41,564 nucleotides of DNA from Lewinella cohaerens DSM 23179 (GTDB lineage: Bacteria; Bacteroidota; Bacteroidia; Chitinophagales; Saprospiraceae), in contig NZ_KB903543.1 of the NCBI RefSeq assembly GCF_000379805.1, positions 276,116-317,679 on the forward strand, read 5' to 3'. Positions 11,583 through 14,052 of this stretch are shown piece after piece. The notes beneath the pieces were generated by a model that searched no databases, was not told the DNA's origin, and saw only the letters and a list, made by a program, of their open reading frames with translations. Numbering within the stretch: position 1 is the stretch's first letter; the number at the start of each line of letters is the position of its first letter. Both the position numbers and the translations under genes were made by a program.

Positions 11583-12986
11583 TTATTTCAACCCATATTT
11601 ATCCAGCAAGTAGACCAAAGCCGTAATAGAAGCTGCCCCTAATTCCAGTTCCCGCTTATTGACGGCTTCAAAAGTATCAATTGCTGTATGGTGATAATCA
11701 AAATAGCGCTGTGAGTCTGGTTCAAACCCAATCAGTAAACCTTGCTGTATCTTGAGTCCAGAAATATCAGCACCGCTTCCTCCCTTTTTCAAGCCAAGCC
11801 CGTAGGGTTCTAAAAGTGGCAGCCACTCATAGACTTGTTGAAACTTTGATGTAAACACATTGTCGTCAGCATCAAAGGTGAAGCCGCGAGGAGTAAAACC
11901 GCCTCGATCTGATTCAATAGCCGCCATGTGGTACTCTTCGGCATCATTAGAGGCCTTCCAGTAGGCACGAGCACCGCCCAGGCCACTTTCTTCATTCATA
12001 AAAAGAACACAGCGAATGGTACGCTGAGGCTGGTAATTCATTTTTTTGAGCAATTCAATAACCTGCATCGCGTGTACACAACCCGCTCCGTCATCATGCG
12101 CTCCTTCACCAACATCCCAAGAATCGAGGTGACCACCAATAAGTATGATTTCATCAGGGTAGGTGCTGCCTCGAATCTCACCTATAACATTATAGGAGGT
12201 GGCCGGTGGTCTAGGCTCGCAAGTGGAACGCACAAAAACATTGACCTCTTCTTTTTTGAGCAAACGACTCAGTAGTTCAGCATCATTAGTACTAATCGCA
12301 AAAGCAGGAATAGGAGTAACACCTTCCTTGTACCCCATTGCTCCTGTGTGAGGAATATTATCAAGGCGAGTAGTCATGGAACGAACTAAGGTAGCTACCG
12401 CCCCATACTCCGACGCTTTAGAAGCGCCGATGCCACGCTGATCGACAGCACCTCCGTAAGCCGAGAAGGTATTCATTTGGGTAGGATCCATCGGGCGATT
12501 ATAAAAAACGATTTTGCCAGCAAGTTGCTCTCTTCCTAACTTTTCTAGTTCATCCAAGCTTTGTACCTCTACAACACCAGCGACCAAGCCATCAGGACCA
12601 GTGCCTACACTGTGCCCCAAAGCAAGTGCATGAAGCTCCTGGGTGCCAATTTGCTCAGAGTTTACAATTCGCACCTGCTCTTCTTCACCTCTCACCCAGG
12701 TCGGCACAGTACATTCTTCTAAATACACCGCATCCATTCCTAAAGTATCTAATATATGCTGGCCATAAGCAACCGCAGCTACAGACTGGGGCGAACCGGC
12801 CAATCTGCCCCCTACCTCTTTGGTTAGATGGTAAAGCCATTGGTAACAGGAACCTTCCGTAAGTGCTTTATTATAGATTTCACGAATCGTTCTTGCGTCT
12901 TCTTCTTGCTGGATTTCCTGAGCGTTCAATAACGGTGCGGTAGCACCAAATAGTAGTAACCCGAAAAAAATTGACTTTATTTTCAT
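11583..12986 (-). CDS. Secreted M28 family metallopeptidase (carboxypeptidase Q-like)
   Basis: 467 residues from the ATG at 12986; a start 36 bp upstream would put 12 extra residues ahead of the signal peptide MKIKSIFFGLLLFGATAPLLNAQ. A protease-associated domain is likely between about 120 and 250. The di-zinc catalytic part shows GGHLDSWD (His at about 286), HDDGAG, MNEESG, ESDRGG and a late DYHHTAIDT, in the order expected of M28 aminopeptidases and carboxypeptidase Q. It should act in the periplasm or outside the cell on peptides; the specificity is unknown. It has no C-terminal T9SS domain. It lies on the same strand as hpt, 166 bp upstream of it. Confidence 0.92.
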   Translation of the reverse strand: MKIKSIFFGLLLFGATAPLLNAQEIQQEEDARTIREIYNKALTEGSCYQWLYHLTKEVGGRLAGSPQSVAAVAYGQHILDTLGMDAVYLEECTVPTWVRGEEEQVRIVNSEQIGTQELHALALGHSVGTGPDGLVAGVVEVQSLDELEKLGREQLAGKIVFYNRPMDPTQMNTFSAYGGAVDQRGIGASKASEYGAVATLVRSMTTRLDNIPHTGAMGYKEGVTPIPAFAISTNDAELLSRLLKKEEVNVFVRSTCEPRPPATSYNVIGEIRGSTYPDEIILIGGHLDSWDVGEGAHDDGAGCVHAMQVIELLKKMNYQPQRTIRCVLFMNEESGLGGARAYWKASNDAEEYHMAAIESDRGGFTPRGFTFDADDNVFTSKFQQVYEWLPLLEPYGLGLKKGGSGADISGLKIQQGLLIGFEPDSQRYFDYHHTAIDTFEAVNKRELELGAASITALVYLLDKYGLK

Positions 12987-13022
12987 CTTTTTGGAATAGT
13001 AGAAAAATGAGTTAAACGACAC

Positions 13023-13269
13023 TCCCTGCTTCTAACTAACTGATAACTAGACACTAGAGAATACCCGGTGAATTTAGAGAATTATTCCGCATTTCTTTCA
13101 TCAGCAAAATTTAATTTGATCAAAATGCTTAATTCTTGCAAAAACTCGTCATTCCAACAATCAACACTAGCACTAAAACCGATTAATCTTTTACAAAAAA
13201 GATGATCTCTTCAATTTTGTCATAAGCTTATAGATCGTAAAAAGCGAAGAGGTGATGGATGTGGAGTAA
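13023..13269. other. AT-rich intergenic region
   Basis: No coding sequence recognised. It should contain the promoter of the minus-strand M28 peptidase gene. The part to its right (13270-13445) holds a probable small RNA gene with its own promoter and terminator. Confidence 0.4.
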
Positions 13270-13300
13270 TTGTATTTTGTACAATAACTTCCTATATTTG
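13270..13300 (+). promoter_or_regulatory. Bacteroidota-type promoter of a small RNA
   Basis: TTG at 13270-13272, a 20-bp spacer, then TATATTTG at 13293-13300. This fits the known TTG-N17-23-TAnnTTTG promoter without mismatch and predicts transcription from about 13305-13307. No protein gene follows on the plus strand for over 4 kb. Confidence 0.7.
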
Positions 13301-13305
13301 TTTCA

Positions 13306-13445
13306 TCATCAGAAAGGACATAGGTCTTTTCTACGATATAATTTGGTTTTATTTGGTTAGGGCTGAGGTAGTGCTGTGGTGGCGCTGCCTCTTTTTGATG
13401 ACAGCGCTTTGTTTCTTTAACAGAAAACAAAGCGCTGTTTTTTTT
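13306..13445 (+). ncRNA. Candidate small RNA of about 140 nt
   Basis: A transcript from the promoter at 13270-13300 would fold into three successive hairpins. The first is 13311-13332 (9 bp with one G-U, loop ATAG). The second is 13366-13390 (9 bp with two G-U, 7-nt loop). The third is 13401-13438 (14 perfect bp) followed by eight Ts, a strong intrinsic terminator. Between the first two lies a single-stranded U-rich part with atttggtt twice (13341-13348 and 13351-13358), a possible base-pairing region. No start codon with a sensible reading frame exists. It lies between two minus-strand genes, so it is not a leader of either. I do not recognise it as 6S, SRP RNA, tmRNA or a riboswitch class. 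Confidence 0.65.
13401..13445 (+). terminator. Strong intrinsic terminator of the candidate small RNA
   Basis: Perfect 14-bp arms acagcgctttgttt (13401-13414) and its complement (13425-13438), a 10-nt loop, and a run of eight T (13438-13445). The T-run is on the plus strand only, and no plus-strand protein gene precedes it. Confidence 0.85.
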
Positions 13446-13446
13446 G

Positions 13447-14052
13447 CTACAAACTCCACGCCTTACCTACGTCGCTGAGTGGAATACAACCTTGATAAGG
13501 CCCTGGGATGGGGTCGTAAGCCAACACTTCGGTCCCCACCTTTTCAGACGCAAAGTAACTATTAATCGCCAAGGATTTTAAATCCAACCACCAGGGCTGC
13601 TTCTCCTCTAATTCATCTTTATCTAAATCCTGCTCCTCCAGACTTTCCGCAGTCGCAATAGATTCTTTGTCCAACACATTAAGCAACCGGAGCTGATCTT
13701 CAGCTGATAAACTGTGGTAGGGCTTGCGTTCTGAATCCTGAATACTCGATAACCAGGATTGAAAACCATCGACCATTTTCTGACGGTCTTCCTCCTCTGT
13801 GTATTTGTCTAGAACAAGGTCTATGAATTCTGGCACTCCAACTTCCAGTGCACCAGGGGTATCTGTTTTTGGAAGCATCGTGTCTACGACTGCTTTCAAA
13901 TTGAGATAGGTATCCTCAGAAAGAAAAGAAGGCATATAATCCGGTGCAGCAGGCTCTGCTTTGCAACCACTCAAGAAGGCGCTTGTCAAAGGAGCTGTAA
14001 TGGCGTAACCCGTAACGTATGCTGTATATTTTAGGATAGCTCTGCGATCCAT
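13447..14052 (-). CDS. Gluconate 2-dehydrogenase subunit 3-like small subunit (Tat lipoprotein)
   Basis: 201 residues. The N-terminus MDRRAILKYTAYVTGYAIT carries a twin-arginine-like DRR motif, a hydrophobic stretch and a lipobox ending in Cys30 (FLSGC), so it is probably exported folded and lipidated. The body (NLKAVVDTMLPKTDTPGALEVGVPEFID, written here in two parts: NLKAVVDTMLPKTDTPGALE, then VGVPEFID) is characteristic of the small-subunit family paired with membrane-bound GMC dehydrogenases. It probably chaperones or co-exports the flavoprotein encoded just upstream (14073-15797), with a 20-bp gap in one operon. The stop codon lies one base past the T-run of the small RNA terminator on the opposite strand. 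Confidence 0.88.
   Translation of the reverse strand: MDRRAILKYTAYVTGYAITAPLTSAFLSGCKAEPAAPDYMPSFLSEDTYLNLKAVVDTMLPKTDTPGALEVGVPEFIDLVLDKYTEEEDRQKMVDGFQSWLSSIQDSERKPYHSLSAEDQLRLLNVLDKESIATAESLEEQDLDKDELEEKQPWWLDLKSLAINSYFASEKVGTEVLAYDPIPGPYQGCIPLSDVGKAWSL

Follow-up and report, generated by a model that had tools for sequence, protein, structure and literature searches.

Positions 13270-13445 of the window carry a member of an sRNA gene family of the Saprospiraceae, and we consider it likely that this RNA acts in trans by base pairing and represses amino-acid and acyl-CoA catabolism. The window is the whole 41,564-nt stretch of DNA analysed here, positions 276,116-317,679 of the forward strand of contig NZ_KB903543.1 (assembly GCF_000379805.1) of Lewinella cohaerens DSM 23179, whose GTDB lineage is Bacteria; Bacteroidota; Bacteroidia; Chitinophagales; Saprospiraceae. 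The gene has its own promoter and an intrinsic terminator and no conserved reading frame, and it contains a conserved strand that is complementary to mRNAs above chance, namely at the starts of hbd. The free-standing, trans-acting RNA proposed in the first-pass annotation is thus favoured, as its core is conserved, its hairpin at 13365-13391 covaries, and the complement of its linker sits at gene starts. Its expression, the direction of regulation (repression rather than activation), the signal and any protein partner we infer. From 5' to 3', the family consists of a promoter with a palindrome, a variable 5' part, a near-invariant strand, a hairpin and a T-rich tail, which in the window lie as follows, together with a neighbouring gene and a second terminator:

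11583-13022, minus strand: M28 family peptidase gene, the conserved divergent neighbour (Pfam Peptidase_M28, 84.5 bits)
13270-13300, plus strand: promoter of the Bacteroidota-type consensus, with TTG at 13270-13272, a 20-nt spacer and TATATTTG at 13293-13300
13270-13284, plus strand: palindrome TTGTATTTTGTACAA (TTGTA-N5-TACAA) overlapping the -33 TTG, a candidate operator
13306-13338, plus strand: variable 5' part of the RNA, including a hairpin at 13311-13332, with the probable start near 13306 placed from the -7 box
13339-13364, plus strand: invariant single strand (seed) TAATTTGGTTTTATTTGGTTAGGGCT, 26 nt, delimited by comparison of copies and complementary to hbd starts
13365-13396, plus strand: family-wide terminator, the hairpin 13365-13391 followed by T5, identified by covariation
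13401-13445, plus strand: second terminator, the hairpin 13401-13438 with a 14-bp stem, followed by T8 at 13438-13445

The promoter had been described as matching the Bacteroidota consensus without a mismatch, and it does; 0.73 such matches are expected by chance per window, however, so that the match is unremarkable alone and conservation became the question. That figure is what would favour reading the locus as an unrelated promoter-like match together with a strong terminator, an explanation that family-wide conservation and covariation refute and to which we attach almost no probability. Recurrence takes the combination beyond chance: of 143 copies, 80 have a promoter-like match no more than 260 nt upstream of the core, and the hairpin covaries. 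The sequence TTGTA-N3-8-TACA is found within the same distance of the core in 57 of the 143 copies, and when one mismatch is allowed the palindrome is present in 59 of 79 intergenic regions between the M28 gene and the sRNA, as against 26% of mononucleotide-shuffled ones. Its position over the -33 element suggests a dedicated regulator.

Conservation in relatives, on which the first-pass annotation had staked its reading, is extensive within one family. With 13250-13455 as a BLAST query and 100 relatives as the database, every match below 1e-5 was in Saprospiraceae, and a 24-nt core with up to two mismatches is present in 198 of 398 Saprospiraceae genomes and 58 of 112 genera, mostly as one copy per genome and as two in some; the reversed pattern was found in one genome among the matches listed. 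In the 80 listed of at least 118 matches, the named isolates with the core belong to Lewinella, Neolewinella, Phaeodactylibacter and Flavilitoribacter; they include the culturable strains Neolewinella persica DSM 23188 and Phaeodactylibacter xiamenensis KD52. Those loci, at least 118 in number, were found with an exact 20-mer, so the invariance of their seed is by construction. A less biased sample is provided by the 30 best BLAST loci, 29 of which have the exact 20-mer. The two-mismatch search is likewise less biased with respect to invariance, and it yields a seed variant with a T-to-C change, TTTGGTTTCATTTGG. A covariance model built from 69 sequences gave matches of 48 bits or more only in Saprospiraceae (43 genomes) among 248 genomes of the order; in a draw of 296 genomes across the phylum, 31 had matches at E 0.01 or better, and those outside Saprospiraceae scored 41 bits at most. 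Divergent copies retain mostly the second repeat of the seed, ATTTGGTTAG. One of the 143 copies, in a "Bacteroidales" MAG (L071), has the 20-mer without a terminator and looks like chance. Near-exact cores without a terminator hairpin were also seen in two genomes outside the order (L222 and L220; ATTGGTTTTATTTGGTTAGGGCTGA and CATTTGGTTTTATTTGGTTAG).

Of the two stems named for a covariation check, that at 13366-13390 gives a clear answer. In the hairpin 13365-13391 (-17.4 kcal/mol), 10 of 11 pairs are changed on both sides, a count that none of 500 shuffles reached, and 94.6% of cells are paired, with far lower values for slid controls. Of 140 copies, 107 have at least six T in the first eight bases beyond the stem, and many of the remaining 33 tails were judged to be mis-trimmed. 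The 14-bp hairpin with T8 that had been taken as the terminator of the RNA is present (13401-13438, -20.2 kcal/mol), and a scan of the 41.6-kb window found no other perfect stem of 10 bp or longer with a run of six or more T behind it. A simple terminator scan, which found 8 against 7.8 expected, is weak alone. The 14-bp hairpin is a second terminator at the level of the genus, the conserved one being 13365-13391: second hairpins follow the conserved terminator in three of four same-genus loci (L003, L004 and L005, not L006), with differing sequences. The second hairpin may catch read-through past a terminator that has only T5. In several copies (e.g., L012, L014 and L089) the T-run is followed by GCCC, a complement of the AGGGC that precedes the terminator hairpin, and stems at the DNA level thus extend across the T-run.

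Two other elements with a terminator hairpin were noticed. One, of the same design and also in Saprospiraceae, consists of TTTTCATTTGGTTTTTTGGGGTTAT followed by a GAGGCAAT hairpin and a T-run (L244 at about 1399-1456, G000:C12:25598-25655; also L245, L235, L236 and L237), and is perhaps a paralogous sRNA or a 3'-end family. The other, noted by eye, is TTTTATTTGGTTAGTAAAATC with a terminator hairpin after the stop codon of a Lys/Ala-rich, H1-like gene in four genomes (L233, L241, L250 and L251) of one genus from another family in the order. The enrichment examined for a general terminator-associated role of the repeat ATTTGGTT was uninformative because the loci had been chosen for matching the model, and this idea was dropped.

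As a whole, 13300-13446 folds at -56.6 kcal/mol, compared with a mean of -31.5 for shuffled sequences (z -7.8, none of 200 shuffles as low). Both further hairpins that had been reported between the promoter and the T8 hairpin, 13311-13332 and 13365-13391, are there. The former (-8.9 kcal/mol) is not conserved in sequence, although the 5' part (median 34 nt, range 19-113, in 76 copies) folds better than shuffled sequence, at z -2 or lower, in 35 of the 76. Within the seed the mean unpaired probability is only 0.42, owing to a weak G-U hairpin that lacks two-sided changes, and this counts against the base-pairing reading.

No protein gene accounts for the locus. Up to 17754, the neighbouring open reading frames in the list lie on the minus strand, as had been said of the flanking protein genes, and no plus-strand frame is conserved across the 143 copies, with an in-frame ATG upstream of the core in 1, 7 and 3 of them for the three frames. 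One frame across the core, open in the window, reads I-W-F-Y-L-V ahead of the terminator, as a leader peptide in an attenuator might, but it is the frame with an upstream ATG in only 3 of 143 copies, and the next downstream gene in the window is on the opposite strand. Lacking a conserved start, a leader peptide is disfavoured, and we consider it very improbable.

The description of the gene as an "orphan" was too strong, since it has a conserved divergent neighbour. Of 120 loci with at least 1 kb of upstream sequence, 94 have the M28 peptidase gene in divergent orientation no more than 1.5 kb away, the distance from its ATG to the core having a median of 322 nt (79 placed). A phosphoribosyltransferase gene is also upstream in 39 of the 120 loci, and the Gluconate_2-dh3 and GMC genes that lie downstream are each retained in 3. 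The M28 mRNA was considered as a target and rejected, as its 79 starts pair with the seed at a mean of -11.5 kcal/mol, no better than background; these starts served as a negative control for seed pairing.

Complementarity at gene starts exceeds the controls strongly for hbd and moderately for hmgA and for the whole set of sites. The gene hbd encodes 3-hydroxybutyryl-CoA dehydrogenase, and 28 of 30 RNA-carrying genomes yielded an ortholog, of which 25 starts were placed and three dropped. For the 25 starts, the mean energy of pairing with the seed is -18.46 kcal/mol, compared with -12.17 (sd 0.84) for 300 dinucleotide-shuffled seeds, none of which was as low; on 300 background starts the value for the real seed is -12.63, a level reached by 10 of 100 shuffled seeds. 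With 40-nt windows, the energy is -17.4 at the hbd start, -9.9 upstream and -11.6 in the coding region, and a reversed seed gives -12.3 at the start. The pairing often covers most of the core, at about -25 to -1. For hmgA, 7 of 28 starts are at -20 kcal/mol or lower, as against 1.1% of 640 background starts, and the median of -13.95 (n=28) reflects complementarity at background in many genera. Only 1 of 300 shuffled seeds was as low on 30 hmgA starts, and the same-genus starts are all at -20.7 or lower (4 of 4). Palindrome-like runs such as AACAATTGTT and TGTCATGACA were noticed by eye upstream of hmgA (L461, L462, L467, L471 and L476) and are perhaps sites for a transcriptional regulator. In one genome (G132) a second, one-mismatch copy of the core (C136:99716-99739) lies about 740 nt upstream of hmgA (100477-101634).

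The linker between the hairpins had been noted for containing ATTTGGTT twice, which it does, with the repeats 10 nt apart, and it is this linker whose complement sits at gene starts. Such a repeat might instead point to a binding site for a protein, such that the RNA titrates, or rides on, an RNA-binding protein (e.g., an RRM protein like RbpB) and pairing with mRNAs is secondary; excerpts of PMC11697453 describe RbpB as binding single-stranded parts of seed-plus-terminator sRNAs in Bacteroides. Near-identity covers the whole 20-22 nt of the seed, beyond the repeats, and complementarity to hbd start sites is not expected of a protein site, so that we think this account quite unlikely as the main one, although protein binding and mRNA pairing can coexist.

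In four same-genus genomes the 10-mer CTAACCAAAT, the complement of the second repeat, precedes a gene start (an ATG 8-30 nt after the site that opens at least 60 codons outside another frame) at 15 of 68 distinct sites, compared with 6 of 81 for the reversed 10-mer (p 0.017). When the spacing is restricted to 14-23 nt, 11 of 14 are gene starts, compared with 3 of 10 for the reversed 10-mer (p 0.035). Only hmgA recurs among the 15, in two of the four genomes, exact 10-mers being rarely common to orthologs; others precede genes for PepT, an S46 peptidase, arginine deiminase and a methionine-gamma-lyase-like protein, and the hbd gene of one genome (G002) has the 10-mer twice in tandem. Two other searches were abandoned. 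Long target matches (a 21-mer with up to three mismatches, four genomes) comprised the sRNA itself and one near-gene site in the orientation of the sRNA rather than of its complement, while an early scan of seed k-mers in 675 starts had too small a sample and showed enrichment of A-rich k-mers in general as well.

Across the family, with one genome per genus (112 of the 398), CTAACCAAAT-N1-16-ATG and its reversed control occur 285 and 252 times in the 54 genera with the core and 176 and 258 times in the 58 genera where the core was not found (Fisher p 1e-4; Mann-Whitney on log ratios p 0.003), in statistics that ignore phylogeny. Target density differs at p 0.04 and control density at p 0.15. 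The count for genera with the core is slightly inflated, as 8 of 143 copies match the pattern on their own other strand, and the genera without it include some with a divergent RNA detected by the covariance model alone. One small sample is contrary: of 12 sites in genomes with the core, 1 is a gene start, as against 4 of 17 sites where the genome was called negative. Genus g96, in which the covariance model detects a divergent RNA (G105 and G197), accounts for two of these four starts, those of GcvP and of a glutaryl-CoA-dehydrogenase-like gene.

The genes concerned share a catabolic theme, with complementary 10-mers at starts of hmgA, hutH, methionine-gamma-lyase-like, arginine deiminase, icmF and tryptophanase/tyrosine phenol-lyase genes, on weaker statistics than for hbd. 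We sampled 109 CTAACCAAAT-N4-13-ATG sites in 110 loci of a longer list from core-carrying genera, and 39 of these sites precede a gene start by the filter used. Catabolic enzymes, meaning proteins with an NCBIfam match at E 1e-40 or better to a model for the catabolism of amino acids, aromatics or acyl-CoAs, are found at 13 of the 39 starts, as against 3 of 40 control proteins from non-start sites (p 0.005, with classes assigned non-blind and phylogeny uncorrected). Of the 39 starts, 38 were annotated, and L574 was left out and counted as not catabolic; 40 of 67 control proteins were annotated, and two controls (L546 and L571) may be true starts that the filter missed. Many NCBIfam matches are below the model's cut-off because the proteins are cut by the stretch. 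The cystathionine-gamma-synthase/methionine-gamma-lyase type occurs at matched starts in three genera, HutH, IcmF and acyl-CoA dehydrogenases in two each, and arginine deiminase, tryptophanase/tyrosine phenol-lyase, 3-oxoadipyl-CoA thiolase and acetoacetate-CoA ligase are also present. Outside the theme are GAPDH, HtpG, NuoF, MiaE and several unknowns. Homologous pairs recur more often at matched starts (8 of 741) than in the control (6 of 2211, p 0.010). A C before the 10-mer is commoner at starts (18 of 39 vs 18 of 70, p 0.035), and the duplex energy around it is no better there (-18.6 vs -18.4 kcal/mol elsewhere, p 0.14).

With hbd by far the strongest case, and the remaining support at p 0.003 to 0.02 with contrary small samples, one could argue for a base-pairing sRNA that has hbd as its single main target, or that activates its targets, with the wider catabolic list mostly chance. 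We regard this as unlikely, since the contrast between genera with and without the core over 112 genera rests on more than hbd, and matched starts of the methionine-gamma-lyase type, of HutH and of IcmF are each seen in at least two genera.

In GcvB of enterobacteria, a G/U-rich strand pairs with C/A-rich sequence near the starts of many amino-acid genes; GcvB is Hfq-dependent and aimed mainly at uptake and biosynthesis. By general description, the Saprospiraceae RNA resembles it in its G/U-rich strand, C/A-rich sites near starts and amino-acid genes, and differs in that its proposed targets are catabolic. No Rfam family (4227 models) matches the window at or above the gathering threshold, in agreement with the earlier failure to recognise a known family; at E 5 or better, nine matches are listed among the whole set, none at this locus. 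A FopS/GibS model, if included in the copy of Rfam used, thus gave no match at E 5 or better; the FopS structure was deposited in Rfam according to an excerpt of PMC11697453.

Trans-acting sRNAs of Bacteroidota with tested targets include GibS and FopS of Bacteroides and Rfp18 of Flavobacterium (excerpts of PMC11697453, PMC7366714 and PMC9723704). In design, the nearest relatives known are the FopS family and GibS from Bacteroides thetaiotaomicron, which, in the excerpts of the first two reports, share with our family a long, single-stranded seed, a Rho-independent terminator, a Bacteroidota promoter and pairing at translation starts, here predicted. Unlike theirs, which is at the 5' end, the Saprospiraceae seed lies directly before the terminator; the Saprospiraceae sRNA usually has one copy per genome rather than 12-15, and its proposed targets belong to amino-acid and acyl-CoA catabolism rather than to SusC and polysaccharide functions (same excerpts). 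FopS and GibS are set apart here by design and description rather than by direct sequence comparison. The closest by theme is Rfp18 of Flavobacterium psychrophilum, compared by description in an excerpt of PMC9723704, which is likewise intergenic, structured, conserved beyond the species and tied to proteases, but pairs via its third stem-loop and has metalloprotease targets. Thus the seed-plus-terminator kind is known, while the family and its proposed regulon appear new; a literature search of partial coverage turned up neither this RNA nor any sRNA described as acting on amino-acid catabolism in the group.

Pairing of an sRNA at a translation start blocks initiation, and repression is therefore the likelier direction. 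The transcript would begin near 13306 and measure about 92 nt if it stops at the conserved hairpin, or about 140 nt if read-through carries it to the second terminator. A duplex of up to about 22 nt would then form between the U/G-rich strand at 13339-13364 and C/A-rich sequence located at about -25 to -1 in target mRNAs, blocking the ribosome and repressing the targets. Most of these would be catabolic enzymes for amino acids, aromatics and short acyl-CoAs, hbd being the best-supported case. The timing of RNA production is probably set by a regulator at the TTGTA-N5-TACAA palindrome. A wider reading, quite possible but held tentatively, is that the seed is nearly fixed because one strand pairs with start sites throughout an entire programme of catabolism (histidine, tyrosine/phenylalanine, tryptophan, methionine, arginine, glycine, short acyl-CoAs and acetoacetate), and that the RNA would be the master post-transcriptional switch by which the Saprospiraceae either spare amino acids or burn them. 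It would do so by extended pairing, as proposed for Bacteroides sRNAs, and a long fixed strand fits the long seeds reported for Bacteroides, which is described as having no obvious Hfq or ProQ homologue (excerpt of PMC7366714). If the base-pairing reading is true, the Saprospiraceae would have a family-level regulator whose target code can be read from the sequence, as CTAACCAAAT- or AAAACCAAA-like stretches where genes start, together with a regulon testable at once and a candidate operator, and the sRNA would bear on why such RNAs use very long seeds.
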